Shown here one piece after another: positions 10,133 to 17,030 of a DNA stretch of 64,000 nt. Under the pieces are notes generated by a model. It worked only from the letters and a program-made list of their open reading frames with translations, ran no database searches and was not told the origin of the DNA. Position numbers and translations under genes: made by a program. Origin of the DNA: Paenibacillus polysaccharolyticus (GTDB lineage Bacteria > Bacillota > Bacilli > Paenibacillales > Paenibacillaceae); the NCBI RefSeq assembly GCF_900102085.1, contig NZ_FMVM01000016.1:124001-188000 (forward strand), read 5' to 3'. Every line of letters starts with the position of its first letter. Within the stretch, counting starts at the first letter, position 1.

Positions 10133-10506
10133 CACCTCACCATCGCAGGTGCAAATCCTCTGCTTCGTCTTATTAGAATCAGCATTTAGGCGACAAAACA
10201 TCCATGTCACATCACATGTCATTCGTCATTTATAATTATACAACAAACCTGCATATTTATCCATAGACAATTACAACCTGTTTCTAATCCAAATAACACC
10301 ACCTGTCCCCTATTTTCAAACACTTCTCCTGAATCTATGAAGTCGATGAATCAGTCTCCTTTCAATTGGGGAAGTTTATACACACGTTCATTTATTAAAT
10401 CCGCCTTTTTTCCGATATACATATAGCTTAGGGAGTAACAACGTAAGGAAGGTGACCTTATCCCTCCACTGTTATAGCTCCCTTCATTATTTTGAAGGAG
10501 GACACC
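10133..10506. other. Divergent intergenic region between the pyr operon and the YhgE-type gene
   Basis: Apart from the pyr promoter at its left end, this AT-rich stretch shows no gene, no strong repeat and no clear promoter for the plus-strand gene. GATATACATATA near 10414-10425 is the nearest candidate -10 region. The ribosome binding site AGGAGG lies just before 10507. Confidence 0.5.
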
Positions 10507-13182
10507 ATGCGTCACATATGGCAAATTTACAAGACAGACTGGCTACATATTTTCAAAGTACCCACAGGTATATTTCTGATCGTCGCAATCATATTACTGC
10601 CAGGTGTATACGACTGGGTAAATGTCAAATCCGTTTGGGACCCGTACAGTAATACACAAGGCATCAAAATCGCCGTAACTAGTGAAGACAAGGGTGCCAC
10701 AGTTACGGGTACTGCCATTAATATTGGCGATGAGTTAATGAATAGTTTAAGTCACAACCACAAGCTGGGATGGACATTTGTGAATCAAGCCGAGGCTAAC
10801 CGAGGTGTTCAGACCGGTGAGTATTATGCCAGCCTGCTCATTCCTGCTGATTTTTCATCACGGATCACGGGCATTGTGGATGGAAAACTGGATCGGCCGG
10901 AAGTCATATACACAGTCAATGAAAAGGTCAATGCCATCGCTCCCAAAATAACCGGTTCGGGCGTATCCGCCATTACAACGCAGATTAATGAGAATTTTAC
11001 TGAAGCCGTCAGTGAAGCAGTGCTTACCAAGCTGAAGGAAGCTGGCGTAGAGATTAATGCACAGTTGCCAACGCTACGCAAAATGGAAAGTGGCATCTTT
11101 TTGCTGGAGAAAAATCTGCCTGAAATCCAGACAGCTGGTCAGAAAGTGCTCGAAGTTGACCAAGCCATGCCGGAGATTGTAAAACAGGCTCATAAAATTG
11201 TTGAATTAGAGAAAAGACTGCCTGAAATTAATGAAGCTGCTGGATATGTACTAAAAGTACAGCAATATTGGCCTCAGATTAAAGCGGCTGCTTCAGAGGT
11301 GGTAGCCTTACAAGATCGAATACCGGAAATAGAGCAAGCCGTCGCCCGCATTCAAGAGGTTGATGCCAACTTCGGACAAGTTTCTGGAGTGATTCAAACC
11401 GCCCTGGATAAGACCAATCAAGCTCTTGCTATCGTTTCTGATGCTGAGCAGGATTTGGATAAGGTGTCCGAAATTTCTGATAACGCAGTGCAGTTTGCTA
11501 ATGGATTAAATCAATTTGCAAGTTCCAGTCAGGAAGCTTTCCAATCGATTACGCCAACGATTCGGCAAAATCTGATGTTCGTGCAACAAATAACAAACGT
11601 AGCTGGCGATATGTTCGAACAATTAAAAGGAACCGATTGGAGTAAGTTGCCAAGCGCTGATGACATCGACCGTCTTACTTCTCGTCTAGGCACTGCAGTA
11701 AAAATCATGGATAGTATGTCTGATCTGTTAGGCAAAATCGATGCTCTATTGCCCTCTCATCCACTGGCAACAAGGATACAGCAATTACAAACGATATCCG
11801 AACAACTTCAGCAACAAATAAAACTGGCCGGAATCATCAGTACAGCCTTGCGCGAGAATACAATCCCTCCCGCAGATGTTGTTGCCCGATTAAATGAAAT
11901 GAATAGAAACATTAACACCGGGATCGATCGCTTCCTAAGCACCTTTGATAGCCAGATTGTTCCTGCGCTTACGGATGCAACCGATCAGCTAAAGTCTGTT
12001 CTCTCTACGTCAGCTAATACGTTGCAAGCAGCAAAGGAGCGTCTTCCCGACATTGCAGCAATTCTCGCTACAGCGAAGGAGGGCATTCAATTTGGTCAAA
12101 CGGAGCTGGAAAAAATTCAGGGTGATCTACCCGACATTCAGGCTAAGGTACATGAGATTTCACAAACCGTTGGCACTAAGAGTGAATCCTTTATCCGTGC
12201 TTGGCATGTGGTGTCTTCCCTTATTCAACGTGATATGCCCAAGCTGGAGGATAAATTAAATGCGGCTGCCGATTTTGTTCGTAATGATCTGCCTCAGGCT
12301 GAGAAGCAAATTAGCAAAGCGTCCAGCTTTGTGCAGCATCAACTGCCCGATGTGCAACAAGGAGTACATCGCGTAGCTACTCTTGTTCGTAAGGACTTGC
12401 CAGAGCTGGAAAGTGCAATCCGCAAGGCTGCCGAGAAATTAAGAGAAGTCGAGGGCAATAATCAATTTGCCGAGCTCGCCAAATTGTTGCGGGGGGATAT
12501 TGAAGAGGAAAGTGCATTCCTCGCGAGTCCAGTACAGATTAAGGAACAACACCTGTATTCCATTCCGAATTACGGTTCAGCGATGTCACCATTCTATGCC
12601 GTATTATCACTATGGGTAGGTTCAACATTGTTAATATCCCTGTTGCGTGCGGAAGCAGAAAACCCGGAGGGCGCATACCGCGGATATGAACTGTATCTCG
12701 GTCGCCTAGCTACTTTCCTAACCGTTGGTTTATTGCAGGCGATATGCGTTACAGCGGGAGACATCTGGATTCTGGGAACATATGTCGCAGATCAATGGTT
12801 GTTTATTGTATTTGCCATGCTAGTGAGTGCAGTGTTTGTCACGATCACATATACGCTTTTATCTGTATTCGGTAATATTGGCAAAGGCATCGCTATCATC
12901 TTCATGGTGTTTCAGTTCTCCAGTTCGGGTGGTACTTTCCCGATCAGCATGACTTCGCCCTTTTTTCAAGCGTTAAATCCGTTCATGCCGTTCACTTATG
13001 CTATCAGTCTGCTACGTGAAGCTGTCGGTGGTATTCTATGGTCAACAGCCATAAAGGACATCCTGTGGTTATGTCTGTTCATAGCGCTTAGTCTTATTCT
13101 TGCTCTCTTGTTAAAACGACCATTAAGCAGCTTAACGAAACGTTCTGCTGAAAATGCGAAAAAAACGAAAATCATTGCTTGA
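10507..13182 (+). CDS. YhgE/Pip-type membrane protein with long helical-repeat ectodomain
   Basis: An 891-residue protein of the YhgE/Pip (phage infection protein) family. It has an N-terminal transmembrane helix (about residues 18-35), a very large extracytoplasmic region and about six C-terminal helices of ABC-2 permease type (from about residue 692, ending in NPFMPFTYAISLLREAVGGI). The ectodomain holds two blocks of regular repeats starting with a Pro-marked LPE/LPD: five of 17 residues (about 204-288) and four of 18 (about 577-648), probably a helical rod across the wall. The ATG follows AGGAGG by five bases. Its role is unknown; family members include phage receptors and type VII secretion components (EsaA/YueB). 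It is the only plus-strand gene in the first 20 kb. Confidence 0.85.
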   Translation: MRHIWQIYKTDWLHIFKVPTGIFLIVAIILLPGVYDWVNVKSVWDPYSNTQGIKIAVTSEDKGATVTGTAINIGDELMNSLSHNHKLGWTFVNQAEANRGVQTGEYYASLLIPADFSSRITGIVDGKLDRPEVIYTVNEKVNAIAPKITGSGVSAITTQINENFTEAVSEAVLTKLKEAGVEINAQLPTLRKMESGIFLLEKNLPEIQTAGQKVLEVDQAMPEIVKQAHKIVELEKRLPEINEAAGYVLKVQQYWPQIKAAASEVVALQDRIPEIEQAVARIQEVDANFGQVSGVIQTALDKTNQALAIVSDAEQDLDKVSEISDNAVQFANGLNQFASSSQEAFQSITPTIRQNLMFVQQITNVAGDMFEQLKGTDWSKLPSADDIDRLTSRLGTAVKIMDSMSDLLGKIDALLPSHPLATRIQQLQTISEQLQQQIKLAGIISTALRENTIPPADVVARLNEMNRNINTGIDRFLSTFDSQIVPALTDATDQLKSVLSTSANTLQAAKERLPDIAAILATAKEGIQFGQTELEKIQGDLPDIQAKVHEISQTVGTKSESFIRAWHVVSSLIQRDMPKLEDKLNAAADFVRNDLPQAEKQISKASSFVQHQLPDVQQGVHRVATLVRKDLPELESAIRKAAEKLREVEGNNQFAELAKLLRGDIEEESAFLASPVQIKEQHLYSIPNYGSAMSPFYAVLSLWVGSTLLISLLRAEAENPEGAYRGYELYLGRLATFLTVGLLQAICVTAGDIWILGTYVADQWLFIVFAMLVSAVFVTITYTLLSVFGNIGKGIAIIFMVFQFSSSGGTFPISMTSPFFQALNPFMPFTYAISLLREAVGGILWSTAIKDILWLCLFIALSLILALLLKRPLSSLTKRSAENAKKTKIIA

Positions 13183-13212: not shown

Positions 13213-13255
13213 AAAAAAGGCCTCTTGAACGTAAGTTCAAGAAGCCTTTTTCTTT
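13213..13255. terminator. Bidirectional terminator between convergent genes
   Basis: AAGGC(c)TCTTGAAC and GTTCAAGA(a)GCCTT form a 13-bp stem with one mismatch and a GTAA loop. T-rich sequence follows on the plus strand, and six A precede it, giving T on the minus strand. It serves the YhgE-type gene and the convergent membrane protein gene. Confidence 0.88.
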
Positions 13256-13323: not shown

Positions 13324-14631
13324 TCATCGCTGTGCTGAACGTTGCTCTTCCAGCTGTTCATAAGATTGTTTAATCGTCGACAGGGTTTCAAAATGACGAT
13401 AGATGTTGTTGCCAACCGTGACGAGCAAGGATGCTACGAGCAGTCCAATCAGTACTTTTTTACCCAACCCGGAGCGCAGACTGCTGATAAACATACCACC
13501 AAGCAGATAAAAAGCAAACAAATAATGTCCGGCATACAGGTACATATCATACTGATACACAGCTAGCCCGAACCCTACAACAAGGTGAAGCAGGAAAGCA
13601 AATATAATGTACGGCATTAACGTCCACACACTGCGCTCGCGTATACCACGAATGAAACCTGCTAGCGCAAGGAACAAAAGAAATATACCCGTAATTTGAA
13701 CATAAAGCGGATTAGAGCGGGTAAGGTCTGTGACAAATGCGACCATACCCGGATCAAGCAAGTACACTTGGGGAGATAACATCGGATTGATGGTCAGCAA
13801 TACTAACGCTTTATAATGTGCCGCCCACTGGAAAGGTGTCGCATAACTCGTGCCCCCATTTTGAATACCTAACAACCAGTTGCTTATCCAGCTTCGGCCG
13901 CCAAATGCAACATACTGAATGGCTGTTAACACCACAATCATCAGTACGGCGAGTGACATAATGCCGATATATTTTTTCCAACCTGCCTTACTACGCCATG
14001 CCTGCATATTAAAGAAGACAGCTCCGGCAAACGGTACGATATTAGTCGAAGTTAATCCAAAGTTAATTGTCGCAAGTAGTGCATTCGGGACATAACGGAC
14101 GTCCTGCTGTGCACGCGAATACTGCAAGTATAGGACGGACAGAAGAATAACAAACTGCACATACGGATACGAGTCCGGGATAAAAGCTGTAAACATAAGG
14201 TACGAGCTGAACCCGAACAGCAACGCGAACAACAACGGTGTATGTGTAGATTTCTTTTCATTTTGGCTAAGAAAAATAAAAACCAGAACAACTGAACCTG
14301 CATTCACAAGGGATTGTAAAATCAGAAAAAACCAATTGCCCCCCAGCAGCTTGGAAATAGCTCCGAGCGTAACGGCCAAATAAGATATTAAAGGATGAAT
14401 AACCGAAGAACTGTTGTCTCCGTAATACATCGAAGGATCAAAATTAAACAGGTTAAGGGGAAATACTGCTGTATTAAACGGTGTATATTTTCCCAGCATC
14501 TCTGCGTTTTGACTGATATACATAATATAAGAACCATTCATCAAACCATAAAAAAGAGCAAAACCGGCGAACAAAACAAAAGCAGTCCAAGTCACTCTAC
14601 GGTCATAAAATATGTAATCTAGAAATTTCAT
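13324..14631 (-). CDS. Polytopic membrane protein, probable GT-C type glycosyltransferase
   Basis: A 435-residue, very hydrophobic protein with roughly ten predicted membrane segments. The first large loop after helix 1 is acidic and aromatic (NFDPSMYYGDNSSS near residues 63-77), the pattern of GT-C glycosyltransferases that use polyprenyl-phosphate sugars outside the membrane. I do not recognise a named family. It is the last gene of an operon with a UbiA-type phosphoribosyltransferase, a HAD phosphatase and two small flippase-like proteins. That context is the main reason to propose it transfers the resulting lipid-linked pentose to a wall polymer or protein. The acceptor is unknown. Confidence 0.6.
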   Translation of the reverse strand: MKFLDYIFYDRRVTWTAFVLFAGFALFYGLMNGSYIMYISQNAEMLGKYTPFNTAVFPLNLFNFDPSMYYGDNSSSVIHPLISYLAVTLGAISKLLGGNWFFLILQSLVNAGSVVLVFIFLSQNEKKSTHTPLLFALLFGFSSYLMFTAFIPDSYPYVQFVILLSVLYLQYSRAQQDVRYVPNALLATINFGLTSTNIVPFAGAVFFNMQAWRSKAGWKKYIGIMSLAVLMIVVLTAIQYVAFGGRSWISNWLLGIQNGGTSYATPFQWAAHYKALVLLTINPMLSPQVYLLDPGMVAFVTDLTRSNPLYVQITGIFLLFLALAGFIRGIRERSVWTLMPYIIFAFLLHLVVGFGLAVYQYDMYLYAGHYLFAFYLLGGMFISSLRSGLGKKVLIGLLVASLLVTVGNNIYRHFETLSTIKQSYEQLEEQRSAQR

Positions 14632-14681
14632 GCGTTCACATCCAATAGTTAATGATAAAGATTAGAAATATAAAATCCGGT

Positions 14682-15002
14682 CTAGAGTACCAGCAAGCAT
14701 AGCCCGCCCATTATACAGATAACGCCGATCCATCTCATTGGTCCTACCGTCTCCTTAAAAGCCCACCTTGCAATAATAAGGGTCCAGACGTAGGTTAAAG
14801 CGTTCGCAGGCAACACCACGGTTAAAGGTAGAAACTTCAGTAACACAATGTTAAGCAGTGCACCCGTTCCATAAAAACCAAGTCCGATCAGCACATGTAG
14901 TCGTTTACGACTCGTTGCGTAAAATTTCAACCCAGCCCCGCCCATCGCTCCGCATAGGGTCATCACGATTAACACAGCAATCATCCAACTATCGATCCAC
15001 AC
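14682..15002 (-). CDS. Small EamA/SMR-like membrane protein, probable lipid-linked sugar flippase subunit
   Basis: 106 residues with four predicted helices, ending IGVICIMGGLCLLVL. The size and the glycine-rich last helix resemble SMR/EamA half-transporters such as ArnE and ArnF, which act as pairs to flip undecaprenyl-phosphate-aminoarabinose. The GTG start lies 14 bases inside the end of the preceding paralogue, so the two are translationally coupled and probably form a heterodimer. A drug exporter of the SMR family is the alternative. The operon context favours flipping the product of the UbiA/HAD enzymes. Confidence 0.65.
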   Translation of the reverse strand: MWIDSWMIAVLIVMTLCGAMGGAGLKFYATSRKRLHVLIGLGFYGTGALLNIVLLKFLPLTVVLPANALTYVWTLIIARWAFKETVGPMRWIGVICIMGGLCLLVL

Positions 15003-15318
15003 TGGTTAACGTCACCCCGATTCCCAGGAGCACAACAGCCGCAAGCTTTTGTACCGTAATTTCTTCACCAAGCAAGAAATATCCATAGATTAAAGCAAAA
15101 ACATAACTGGCACACATGAGCGGATAGGCTACCGAGAGCTTTTCGCGCGCGAATGCCTTAATCATCAAAATGGCTCCCATGCCGTAACATAGAAAACCCA
15201 CACCCATGTAGATCCACTCCGTCAATCCCCACTTCCAGAACAATTGCCCTGTCGCCGTCAGGAAAGCAGAAGCCAGCATCAACCATTTGCCCGTGTGACG
15301 TGAACCTATTTCCCCCAC
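14989..15318 (-). CDS. Small EamA/SMR-like membrane protein, probable lipid-linked sugar flippase subunit
   Basis: 109 residues, four predicted helices. The stretch YPLMCASYVFALIYGYFLLG, followed by EE and a glycine-rich last helix, is typical of the C-terminal half of EamA/ArnE-type proteins. The GTG start has GGAGG seven bases upstream and overlaps the HAD phosphatase gene by 13 bases; its end overlaps the next small membrane protein by 14 bases. A paired arrangement of two unequal four-helix proteins is how ArnE/ArnF and heterodimeric SMR transporters are built. Confidence 0.65.
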   Translation of the reverse strand: MGEIGSRHTGKWLMLASAFLTATGQLFWKWGLTEWIYMGVGFLCYGMGAILMIKAFAREKLSVAYPLMCASYVFALIYGYFLLGEEITVQKLAAVVLLGIGVTLTSVDR

Positions 15319-15938
15319 GTCAACGCCTCCATCTCAGGAACACGTTTATTTACAAAATACCGCTGACGCACAAGCTGCATGACGGGAAGATCAGATAAAG
15401 AATCGGAGTAGGAGCAGGATTGCTCATAATCAATTTCCATGTTTTTCTCGGCCAAATAAGCTTGAATCCGGCGTACCTTTTCTTCTCCCTTACAATTGGC
15501 ACCTTCAATGATGCAGGTATAACCATTCTCATGTCGAACAAGTTCGGTTCCGATCACATGATCGACCCAAGGGAAATTTTTGAAATACTTCATATACGCA
15601 TGCGGAGAAGCCGTTACGAGCAACACGTGATATCCAGCTTCCTTCCGATGTTGCATCTCTACACTCGCCTCCGTAAATATGGAAGGTCGGAGGTGGGTAT
15701 CGAAAAAATGCTCCAGGTCTTTTTCAGACATACGTTTGATTTCTTGAAAATAGGAACGTTTAACTCGTTCAACCGTCATAATACCCGCTTTGAATAGGAA
15801 GGTATGAAATGCAATGACAGGCAGACGCCATACTTGCCAAGGATAACGTCGCACACTATAAAATACAAATTGAAACATGGAGTCACTGCGTATAATCGTT
15901 TTATCGATATCAAAGATGGCAACCTTCGTTCGTTTCAC
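15306..15938 (-). CDS. HAD-IB family phosphatase
   Basis: A 210-residue SerB-like HAD hydrolase. All four motifs can be seen: nucleophile and acid in IFDIDKTII (Asp10, Asp12), the Ser/Thr of motif II in LLVTASPHAY, the Lys of motif III in GANCKGEEKV, and the acidic motif IV in SDSLSDLPVM (about 178-187). Proteins of this type are found beside or fused to UbiA-type decaprenyl-phosphate phosphoribosyltransferases, where they are thought to remove the 5-phosphate from polyprenyl-phosphoryl-phosphoribose. That is the likely role here. GTG start with AGGGGG upstream, 33 bases after the UbiA gene. Confidence 0.82.
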   Translation of the reverse strand: MKRTKVAIFDIDKTIIRSDSMFQFVFYSVRRYPWQVWRLPVIAFHTFLFKAGIMTVERVKRSYFQEIKRMSEKDLEHFFDTHLRPSIFTEASVEMQHRKEAGYHVLLVTASPHAYMKYFKNFPWVDHVIGTELVRHENGYTCIIEGANCKGEEKVRRIQAYLAEKNMEIDYEQSCSYSDSLSDLPVMQLVRQRYFVNKRVPEMEALTWGK

Positions 15939-15971
15939 CCTGATCCCCCTCTATACTAAATCTCTCTATGA

Positions 15972-16883
15972 TCATTCGAAAATGGCAAAAATCGTAATCA
16001 CACTCACTACATACAAAATAACCGTAATCAGGATAGGCTTGTCCTCAAATAAAACCCGGTCCGGTGATCCGCCCTGATTTTTCATATGGATAAGATACAA
16101 ATACCGGAACATGCCATAAATCACCAGTGGAATGGTCCACATCAGATGAATAGTGCGATCTGACGTAAAGGTGAACAGTGAATAACTGATGATGGTTGCT
16201 GTCGTGACGATCGTGTTGAACTGATCCAGTAACGTTATCGAGTAATTATCCAGCACTTTACGATGTGATCCTGTGTTGCCTTCGAGCAATGTAAGTTCAT
16301 TTCTCCGTTTACCAATCGCAAGGAACAGCGATAACAACATCGTGCAAATCAGAAACCAAGGGGTGAACGGCACATGAATCAATACACCACCAGCAATTGC
16401 ACGAAGCACAAAACCTGCCGCAATAGTCATCATATCCAGAATAACGAGATGTTTCAGTACAAAAGAATAAGATACGTTCAGTAGGAAATACACAATGCAC
16501 AATACACCGAACAACGGATTCATCACAAAAGCAGCTCCCAAGGAAAACACAAGGAGAGCCATTCCGAATACTATTGCATGTGTAGGATTAACCTGCCCTG
16601 AAGCGATTGGACGGAATTTCTTAGTCGGATGTTGCCTATCCCGTTCCCGATCTACATAGTCGTTCAGTATATACACACATCCTGCAACAAGGCTAAATAA
16701 CAGAAAGCCAATCACTGTTGAAACAATGGTCTCCGTTCGGATTTCCTCAAATGAAAATAACAATGCTGCAAATAACAGCAAATTTTTTGTCCACTGTTTA
16801 GGCCTTAGCAATTTAAACAAACCAGAAACGGTTCCAGCATTACCTACAGCAGAAGATGCGGTATCTTGCCGTGATGAAAACAA
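15972..16883 (-). CDS. UbiA-family prenyltransferase resembling decaprenyl-phosphate phosphoribosyltransferase
   Basis: A 303-residue membrane enzyme with about eight helices. The first Asp-rich motif NDYVDRERDRQHP plus FRPIASG (residues 74-96) and the later YSFVLKHLVILDM and GFVLRAIAGG are close to mycobacterial DPPR synthase (Rv3806c), which moves phosphoribose from PRPP to a polyprenyl phosphate. They fit less well with quinone or heme prenyltransferases. I chose the TTG at 16883, nine bases after AAAGGAG; an in-frame TTG at 16889 is only three bases from it, and no ATG is near. First gene of a five-gene operon, with its own promoter and a terminator behind it on the upstream side. Confidence 0.82.
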   Translation of the reverse strand: MFSSRQDTASSAVGNAGTVSGLFKLLRPKQWTKNLLLFAALLFSFEEIRTETIVSTVIGFLLFSLVAGCVYILNDYVDRERDRQHPTKKFRPIASGQVNPTHAIVFGMALLVFSLGAAFVMNPLFGVLCIVYFLLNVSYSFVLKHLVILDMMTIAAGFVLRAIAGGVLIHVPFTPWFLICTMLLSLFLAIGKRRNELTLLEGNTGSHRKVLDNYSITLLDQFNTIVTTATIISYSLFTFTSDRTIHLMWTIPLVIYGMFRYLYLIHMKNQGGSPDRVLFEDKPILITVILYVVSVITIFAIFE

Positions 16884-16947
16884 TAGCAATAACTCCTTTC
16901 AACAACAATTCTAACGGATTAGTCTATACAAATAACGTAAAGACTTA

Positions 16948-16976
16948 ATCATAAGTTGCTTGGTTATTTTTGTAAA
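16948..16976 (-). promoter_or_regulatory. Probable sigma-A promoter of the UbiA-HAD-flippase-GT operon
   Basis: TTTACA at 16971-16976, a 17-base spacer and TATGAT at 16948-16953 on the minus strand. It lies between the dapL terminator and the UbiA-type gene, so the five genes can be transcribed independently of dapL. Confidence 0.65.
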
Positions 16977-17001: not shown

Positions 17002-17030
17002 AAAAAAGAGACCGTTTCCGGTCTCTTTTT
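17002..17030. terminator. Bidirectional terminator after dapL
   Basis: AAAAAGAGACCG and CGGTCTCTTTTT form a perfect 12-bp stem with a TTTC loop and T-runs on both strands. It separates dapL from the downstream five-gene operon. Confidence 0.9.

Follow-up and report, generated by a model that had tools for sequence, protein, structure and literature searches.

The window analyzed here is a 64,000-nucleotide stretch of a Paenibacillus polysaccharolyticus contig (NZ_FMVM01000016.1). Five reading frames were confirmed on its minus strand between positions 13324 and 16889, where they form a single promoter-terminator unit with the following features, given from the upstream end:

17003-17030, unstranded: terminator-like 12-pair stem separating the aminotransferase gene from the operon
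16948-16976, minus strand: promoter TTTACA-N17-TATGAT (pattern scan and upstream alignment)
16891-16901, minus strand: ribosome-binding site GAAAGGAGT (GAA and GGAG kept in the aligned upstream regions)
15972-16889, minus strand: predicted polyprenyl-phosphate phosphoribosyltransferase of the UbiA superfamily (PPPRS/DPPRS type), probably starting at 16883
15306-15938, minus strand: predicted HAD-IB phosphatase (PF12710, 118.6 bits; TIGR01490, 121.8 bits against a cut-off of 98.3)
14989-15318, minus strand: SMRa, four-helix EamA/SMR protein (EamA, 33.9 bits), predicted N-in
14682-15002, minus strand: SMRb, four-helix EamA/SMR protein (EamA, 30.6 bits), predicted N-out
13324-14631, minus strand: predicted DUF6080 GT-C glycosyltransferase (PF19558, 51.7 bits against a cut-off of 27; structure model)
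13223-13242, unstranded: terminator-like stem separating the operon from the convergent gene at 10492-13182 (pattern scan)

Organization and conservation of the operon

A first-pass annotation made from the sequence had described five tightly spaced genes behind one promoter, with terminators at both ends, and this layout held up. The gaps between successive genes in the window are 33, -13, -14 and 50 bp, and the corresponding medians in 38 five-gene loci are 32, -10, -11 and 47 bp. A promoter scan of the region returned five promoter-like sites against a shuffle mean of 11.8, which is no excess, and because shuffled sequences yield more sites the scan was rejected as evidence when taken alone. 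In an alignment of 18 upstream regions (the window and 17 close relatives), the CTTTACAAAA of the promoter is invariant, TAT-AT is kept, and the stem at 17003-17030 is largely conserved. Terminator-like sites numbered 11 in the region compared with 4.8 in shuffles. The scan listed the stems at both ends of the operon on the plus strand; since an A-tract and a T-tract flank each of them in the sequence, they may act in either direction. For the UbiA protein, the second TTG (16883) is the more likely start codon, because among the 23 closest loci (L031-L053) the match to the protein begins at residue 3 in 17, and because this codon is better spaced from the conserved GGAG.

The first-pass annotation had also named the five genes lying apart in related genomes as an outcome that would speak against its reading. 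Instead, 39 of 80 loci on genome contigs carry the complete set in this order (in one of these, L070, the HAD and SMRa sequences share one frame), which indicates a grouping beyond chance. A survey of 148 Paenibacillaceae genomes found 34 with both the GT-C and the UbiA (PPPRS) gene, and the two are neighbours in all 34. A chance cluster was rejected on these two counts. Eight of the 42 Paenibacillaceae genomes with a PPPRS gene are without the GT-C gene. Of 49 loci with the GT-C gene, five are without the HAD gene and four without the HAD gene and both SMR genes, so the HAD and SMR parts appear to be dispensable or replaceable. Remnants in two genomes reflect loss of most of the operon, and empty sites were seen only there. 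The flanking aminotransferase gene is present in 18 of the 34 genomes.

A predicted phosphoribosyltransferase and its phosphatase partners

Sequence evidence makes it very probable that the UbiA protein acts as a polyprenyl-phosphate phosphoribosyltransferase. It scores above the cut-offs of two curated models for decaprenyl-phosphate phosphoribosyltransferase (NF008977, 289.2 bits against 234; NF008978, 239.4 against 207) and falls below that of a third model with the same name (NF008976, 197.8 against 474). Its top match in the PDB is the Mycobacterium tuberculosis enzyme (8j8j, E 1.8e-49). The nine residues of the PRPP/Mg site, R29, K35, Y73, N76, D80, K90, R93, Y141 and K146, are kept in 80 of 80 loci and correspond to R22, K28, Y70, N73, D77, K87, R90, Y138 and K143 of the solved M. 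tuberculosis enzyme. In that enzyme, the counterparts of R29, K35, Y73 and K90 make pyrophosphate and 5-phosphate contacts (PMC10994848). Two UbiA outgroups that are not PPPRS enzymes differ at exactly these four positions and agree at the other five. One substitution counts against the assignment: all 80 loci have Asn in place of Gln135, which contacts the ribose O3 in the M. tuberculosis enzyme (PMC10994848). All 80 also have F at the position of Y157 of that enzyme.

The UbiA superfamily is broad, and the protein has weak matches to heme o synthase and other models. An alternative, which we regard as very improbable, is that it belongs to the ordinary prenyltransferases acting on quinones, heme or lipids and that the operon is a mixed membrane cluster. 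The heme o synthase model TIGR01473 gave only 52 bits against a cut-off of 210, and the other quinone and heme models listed were far below their cut-offs; the PRPP-site residues are kept in all 80 loci. A quick tree also groups the protein with two actinobacterial enzymes and leaves a UbiA paralogue from the window's own genome outside that PPPRS group. The tree comprises 80 sequences: the window's own, those of 63 of the 80 loci (17 close relatives being omitted) and 16 more. Several branches are very long, and Burkholderia is represented by the final 300 residues of a long open frame; the tree therefore serves only to separate the PPPRS group from two other UbiA proteins. A quinone or heme enzyme was accordingly rejected, and the phosphoribosyltransferase assignment of the first-pass annotation, which had named grouping with quinone or heme prenyltransferases as the outcome that would speak against it, was retained. 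No report pairing the PPPRS enzyme name with Paenibacillus was found in the open-licence literature.

The second protein was correctly recognized at the outset as a HAD-IB phosphatase with its catalytic motifs. It scores above the TIGR01490 cut-off, and the motif residues D10, D12, S111, K150, K154, D179 and D183 are invariant in 40 aligned rows. The phosphatase found next to PPPRS is not always of this type: with one query each and a search range of about 6 kb, a HAD protein was found in 40 of the 80 loci, a divergent PAP2 protein in 27, both in none and neither in 13. PAP2-annotated neighbours were found in two actinobacteria. Kinship with the phosphoribose phosphatase (PRP) domain of Kelly et al. 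was probed with a Burkholderia HAD-UbiA fusion, with which only the first 38 residues of the HAD protein aligned (E 1e-4). The model NF006088 is matched below its cut-off by both the HAD protein (residues 5-45) and the UbiA protein.

The SMR pair and the DUF6080 protein

Both small membrane proteins score above the Pfam EamA gathering score of 28.2. ArnE/ArnF is the undecaprenyl-P-aminoarabinose flippase, and the pair had initially been called ArnE/ArnF-like. The overlapping pair of four-helix proteins stood as an EamA/SMR pair, but the resemblance to ArnE and ArnF proved weak (SMRb, 33.9 bits with the ArnE model, cut-off 92; SMRa, 23.2 bits with the ArnF model, cut-off 99), and membership in those families was rejected because the curated cut-offs were missed. 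What the two systems have in common is a pair of small four-helix proteins and, as predicted for the SMR pair, a polyprenyl-P pentose substrate. In all 44 pairs, the excess of K and R is N-terminal in SMRa and lies on the opposite side in SMRb. This opposed charge topology suggests that SMRa (N-in) and SMRb (N-out) form an antiparallel heterodimer, each being half of a predicted flippase.

The last gene encodes a member of DUF6080, a Pfam family of unknown function. The protein has a GT-C fold in a confident AlphaFold2 model (pLDDT 88.8), in agreement with its earlier description as a GT-C-like polytopic protein. By title, the 50 structural matches listed for the model are GT-C enzymes, GT-C-containing complexes or GPI transamidase, with Z-scores of 11.5-23.6. 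Of 50 sequences, 28 went into the alignment and structure model, and conservation was counted over all 50: D65 is kept in 49 rows, with a gap in the remaining one, and H79, D153 and D362 are kept in 50 of 50. D65 sits between model helices 11-41 and 83-95, that is, in the segment after helix 1, and would be the catalytic acidic residue of the GT-C fold. The protein is predicted to be a polyprenyl-P-pentofuranose-dependent glycosyltransferase. A sequence search of the PDB gave no usable match to it, and a search of plasmids gave none. The Pfam DUF6080 model found matches in eight of 398 Bacillota genomes, five of them over the cut-off, and in none of 14 control genomes; a few of the matches lie outside Paenibacillaceae. 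No report on DUF6080 or PF19558 was found in the open-licence literature.

A proposed pentosylation pathway: sugar, acceptor and known systems

We consider it highly probable that the operon is a self-contained machine that decorates a polymer outside the membrane with a pentofuranose, D-ribofuranose being the most likely. In the series of steps that we infer, the UbiA protein would load ribose from PRPP onto membrane polyprenyl phosphate, the HAD-IB phosphatase would strip the 5-phosphate off polyprenyl-P-ribose-5-P, the antiparallel SMRa/SMRb heterodimer would flip polyprenyl-P-ribose to the outer side, and the DUF6080 GT-C enzyme would pass the ribose to a surface acceptor.

Ribofuranose is the likely sugar because no DprE1 was found in the genome. 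The first-pass annotation, seeing no DprE1/DprE2 genes here, had suggested that the sugar may stay ribose, and DprE1 was likewise not found elsewhere in the genome: a profile search of the window's genome gave no PF04030 match (the same profile found matches in three of 14 control genomes, Corynebacterium glutamicum among them), and the best match to a DprE1-like probe lay in a frame of 457 residues and reached 30 bits with 26% identity. A DprE1 hidden elsewhere in the genome was rejected on these results. The same machine might nevertheless transfer another sugar if an unlinked epimerase converted polyprenyl-P-ribose to arabinose or xylose before flipping. DprE1- and DprE2-like genes do follow PPPRS in three loci (L071, L090 and L096), and a published system makes xylofuranose with an SDR epimerase (PMC11127046). 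Besides the missing DprE1 homologue, none of the five operon genes encodes an epimerase, and we judge this alternative improbable. 

The acceptor may be lipoteichoic acid (LTA). An LtaS-like (LTA-synthase-like) gene adjoins the operon in seven of the 34 genomes holding both GT-C and PPPRS. In six genomes of one genus it lies 77-108 bp downstream on the same strand, and in one genome of a different genus it is divergently adjacent; the link is confined to these two genera. In the window's genome, the LtaS-like genes sit on contigs other than that of the operon. The LtaS orthologue concerned is missing from seven of 35 GT-C genomes, all seven of which have other LtaS-family members. Because the link was noticed post hoc among the neighbours, it is a clue and does not constitute a test. 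There is about an even chance that the acceptor is instead another surface glycan, such as a secondary cell-wall polymer, an exopolysaccharide, or an S-layer or pilin glycan. Consistent with this alternative, the operon's surroundings are unrelated outside groups of close relatives (neighbour clustering of 25 of the 80 loci), a Lactococcus plasmid carries PPPRS, HAD-IB and GtrA genes amid polysaccharide genes, and the published prototypes work on O antigen (PMC11127046). Against it stand the adjoining LtaS-like genes and the three-component LTA glycosylation known in Gram-positives (PMC7389260).

CsbB is a component of LTA glycosylation of the CsbB-GtcA-YfhO type. Our fullest proposal, somewhat doubtful and offered tentatively, is that DUF6080 represents a new GT-C pentofuranosyltransferase family and that the operon ribosylates LTA by way of an antiparallel SMR polyprenyl-P-ribose flippase, making it a Gram-positive, PRPP-fed counterpart of that system. 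Were LTA the acceptor, the result would be a ribose decoration of teichoic acid, on which no report was found in the open-licence literature. The analysis gives DUF6080 a testable function and takes a pathway proven for an O antigen in a Gram-negative organism into a common soil genus, where the flippase would be of another kind and the phosphatase is separate. Exchangeable phosphatases and flippases around a conserved first enzyme would also allow pentose-decorated surfaces to be predicted simply from genomes.

Three known systems invite comparison. The mycobacterial decaprenyl-P-arabinose pathway has a homologous first enzyme (Rv3806c) with the PRPP site kept (PMC10994848), and its later steps use a phosphatase, a flippase of the small SMR type and GT-C transferases; its phosphatase, however, is unrelated to the HAD protein of the operon (PMC11127046). 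The mycobacterial GT-C enzymes resemble the DUF6080 protein in fold only, and since no DprE1 was found here, arabinose is not expected by the mycobacterial route. LTA glycosylation by CsbB-GtcA-YfhO or GtlA-GtcA-GtlB is alike in that a lipid-phosphate sugar is made inside and flipped in Gram-positives, and a polytopic enzyme transfers it outside. Such systems use galactose (from UDP-galactose) or GlcNAc (PMC7389260), whereas ribose from PRPP is proposed here.

The third is the three-component addition of pentofuranose to the O1 and O2 O antigens of Citrobacter youngae (Kelly et al. 2024, PMC11127046); Gram-positive candidates are mentioned there as well. The first-pass annotation had called such a pathway little described; its logic stands, but the same logic was thus already in print. 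Shared features are a UbiA-type PPPRS, dephosphorylation by a HAD enzyme, a flippase, and transfer outside the cytoplasm by a GT-C enzyme, as well as ribose as the product if no epimerase is present. In C. youngae, the HAD and PPPRS parts are fused, the flippase is of the MATE type, and the transferase (ORF12) belongs to GT136, has a carbohydrate-binding domain and acts on an LPS O antigen. In the window, by contrast, which comes from a Gram-positive host, the HAD protein is separate, an SMR pair would serve as the flippase, and the DUF6080 protein has no large extra domain. The principle is therefore already published, while the SMR pair as flippase, the separate HAD phosphatase, the role of DUF6080 and the clue to the acceptor look new.

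Layout of the operon and its first two enzymes

All five genes proposed in the first-pass annotation were confirmed on the minus strand (13324–16889): a UbiA-superfamily protein (very probably a polyprenyl-phosphate phosphoribosyltransferase, PPPRS), a HAD-IB phosphatase, the small membrane proteins SMRa and SMRb, and a GT-C protein. They are closely spaced with two overlaps, a layout preserved across 38 five-gene loci. The upstream promoter is credible because of conservation rather than scan score: when 18 upstream regions from close relatives are aligned, they share CTTTACAAAA and TAT-AT, the ribosome-binding site and the greater part of the terminator stem ahead of the promoter, while a promoter pattern scan found no excess of promoter-like sites. 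The earlier proposal that the operon builds, flips and transfers a polyprenyl-phosphate pentose stands in its main lines.

The UbiA protein is very probably of the phosphoribosyltransferase type, as had been suggested. It passed the NCBIfam equivalog NF008977 (decaprenyl-phosphate phosphoribosyltransferase; 289.2 bits, cut-off 234) and one of two other models that carry this name (239.4, cut-off 207), failing the second (197.8, cut-off 474). A quinone or heme enzyme was rejected, as the listed models for both scored far under their cut-offs. In a control with 14 well-known genomes (E up to 1e-40), NF008977 matched only Corynebacterium glutamicum, yet under cut-off. Among PDB structures, the M. 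tuberculosis enzyme (8j8j, E 1.8e-49) matches best, and nine of its PRPP- or Mg-contacting residues, mapped from PMC10994848, are kept unchanged by the window's protein and by 80/80 loci (best 80 of at least 574); Gln135 and Tyr157 of that enzyme are Asn and Phe, respectively, in all 80. Two UbiA proteins serving as outgroups, of which one is encoded elsewhere in the window's genome, share five of the nine contact residues but not R29, K35, Y73 and K90, and fall outside the PPPRS group in a quick-method tree with long branches. A PPPRS relative (34% identity) is also encoded by a phage from human faeces, in a short record (MT837543.1, 4880–5746), and in Pelosinus and relatives an iron-containing alcohol dehydrogenase gene immediately precedes PPPRS (L094, 4787–5932, and related loci).

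The HAD protein scores above the cut-offs of PF12710 and TIGR01490, and its catalytic motif residues do not vary across 40 aligned rows, in agreement with its annotation as a HAD-IB phosphatase. Among the best 80 of at least 574 loci, 40 carry HAD (one, L045, with a broken frame), 27 a divergent PAP2 protein, none both, and 13 neither, with some of the 13 lying on short contigs. Because the HAD and PAP2 labels cluster on the tree, they do not represent 67 independent events. The PAP2 protein (DUF212) lies near PPPRS at L072 (7249–7677) and 26 other loci where HAD is absent, and its likely role is that of polyprenyl-P-ribose-5-P phosphatase. On a Lactococcus plasmid, the stand-alone HAD-IB encoded next to PPPRS can be aligned with the window's HAD over 199 columns (25%). 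In a Burkholderia HAD-UbiA fusion, the HAD half resembles it over 38 residues only, which leaves the window's HAD a candidate member of the published phosphoribose phosphatase (PRP) group. The plasmid cluster (L128, 3374–6706), with genes for a hypothetical protein, PPPRS, HAD-IB and GtrA amid polysaccharide genes, is a mobilizable version of the same logic. On a haloarchaeal plasmid (L127, 4940–6615), the genes after PPPRS encode a PHP-domain protein and a membrane protein resembling lysylphosphatidylglycerol synthase, which may be yet another phosphatase and flippase.

Probable sugar, flippase and transferase

DprE1 and DprE2 belong to the mycobacterial pathway for the arabinose donor. PF04030 found no DprE1 match in the window's genome but matched 3/14 control genomes, including C. 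glutamicum, and a DprE1-like Tumebacillus probe (itself scoring 487.8 bits with the DprE1 model, slightly short of the cut-off of 500) gave only a 30-bit match there. DprE1- and DprE2-like genes do come after PPPRS in Tumebacillus, Lentibacillus and Ornithinibacillus (L071, L090, L096; the L071 DprE2-like protein scores 196.8, cut-off 250). Bacillota therefore seem to have arabinose versions too, these clusters being probable arabinofuranose donor pathways judging from their gene content; the window's version differs in that none of its five genes supplies such a step. A TIGR00374 flippase-like gene also follows PPPRS at these three loci.

SMRa and SMRb each pass Pfam EamA. With four helices placed by hydropathy in the window, 38 five-gene loci and five HAD-less loci, the Lys/Arg excess falls on the N-terminal side in 44/44 SMRa and on the opposite side in 44/44 SMRb, the pattern that would be expected for an antiparallel heterodimer. 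At L070, HAD and SMRa are joined in one reading frame of 317 codons.

The last protein belongs to DUF6080, and its annotation as GT-C-like agrees with a structural model built from a 28-relative alignment (mean pLDDT 88.8, pTM 0.91). With an E limit of 0.001, Foldseek returned five matches: PglB, an OST complex, Pmt4 and two chains of GPI transamidase, whose matched subunit is GT-C-like. A second comparison gave ALG12 (Z 23.6), PglB (19.3), AftD (18.7), ArnT (18.2) and AftB (16.7), superposed over 326–348 residues at rmsd 4.7–5.7. Judged by title, each of the 50 rows shown is a GT-C enzyme, a GT-C-containing complex (chain not specified) or GPI transamidase. His79, Asp153 and Asp362 occur in 50/50 aligned GT-C rows and Asp65, part of the stretch that follows helix 1, in 49/50; the exception is a gap, presumably in L092, whose GT-C gene is split. 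By analogy with the GT-C precedent in the portions of PMC11127046 consulted, Asp65 may be the catalytic base.

Conservation, loss and a possible acceptor

The five-gene order was expected to be kept in relatives, and it is in 39/80 loci (best 80 of at least 574), with HAD and SMRa fused in one; the others comprise one with a split HAD, five without HAD, four with UbiA and GT-C only, and 31 other contexts. Across 148 Paenibacillaceae genomes, GT-C was found in 35 and PPPRS in 42, with both in 34 and PPPRS without GT-C in eight. In 34/34 genomes with both, the two genes share contig and strand and lie within 4.3 kb, their order being reversed only in G457. Of 36 genomes examined from the window's genus, 20 (the window's included) have UbiA at 87–100% identity, one a 63% relative, one (G023) a remnant, and 14 weak matches only. 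In G023 the first 85 UbiA residues are joined directly to the GT-C end (L133, 5611–6058), next to the aminotransferase gene that also flanks the window's operon, and in G551, the single genome with GT-C alone, a fragment of the GT-C tail (L134, 6070–6243) is left at that place. These sequences are scars of operon loss. Together with the patchy presence, they indicate that these bacteria can do without the operon and can lose it largely as a unit. Beyond sets of closely related loci the flanking genes vary (neighbour clustering, 25 loci), and the operon behaves as a free-standing cassette.

The same clustering placed a 638–644-residue protein after the GT-C gene in 3/25 loci. This neighbor resembles the lipoteichoic acid (LTA) synthase LtaS, with a Sulfatase domain and 283–292 bits on the LTA synthase model, under the cut-off of 970; L074 is a fourth such locus, and L104 holds a more distant one. 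In six genomes, all of one genus, the LtaS-like orthologue follows the operon on its strand at a distance of 77–108 bp; in a single genome of another genus it lies 315 bp upstream and is divergent (7/34 genomes with both GT-C and PPPRS). Against an LTA link, the orthologue (E up to 1e-150) occurs in 103/148 genomes, most without the operon, and the LtaS-like genes of the window's genome are on contigs other than the operon's. Among the 35 GT-C genomes it is present in 28 and absent from seven, all of which have other LtaS-family proteins. We put the chance that LTA is the acceptor at somewhat under one half, a question open to direct test. In G536 and G517 (contigs C66 and C14), two tandem LtaS-family genes lie on the operon's contig at ∼23 kb and 44 kb from it, a placement that may be coincidental.

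Comparison with the Citrobacter system

The pathway had been called little described. Its principle is already known: in the sections of Kelly et al. 2024 (PMC11127046) consulted, PPPRS, the HAD step and GT-C transfer are shown biochemically in Citrobacter, a MATE protein is the presumed flippase, and Gram-positive candidates are said to exist, although "Paenibacillus" is absent from the main text. The parts list, on the other hand, is new. We found no report naming DUF6080 or PF19558 in the open-licence literature, and this family without known function gains a clear, if predicted, role. With its separate HAD, SMR pair and DUF6080 transferase, the window's operon differs from the Citrobacter system as described in those sections and is thus a variant of that type.
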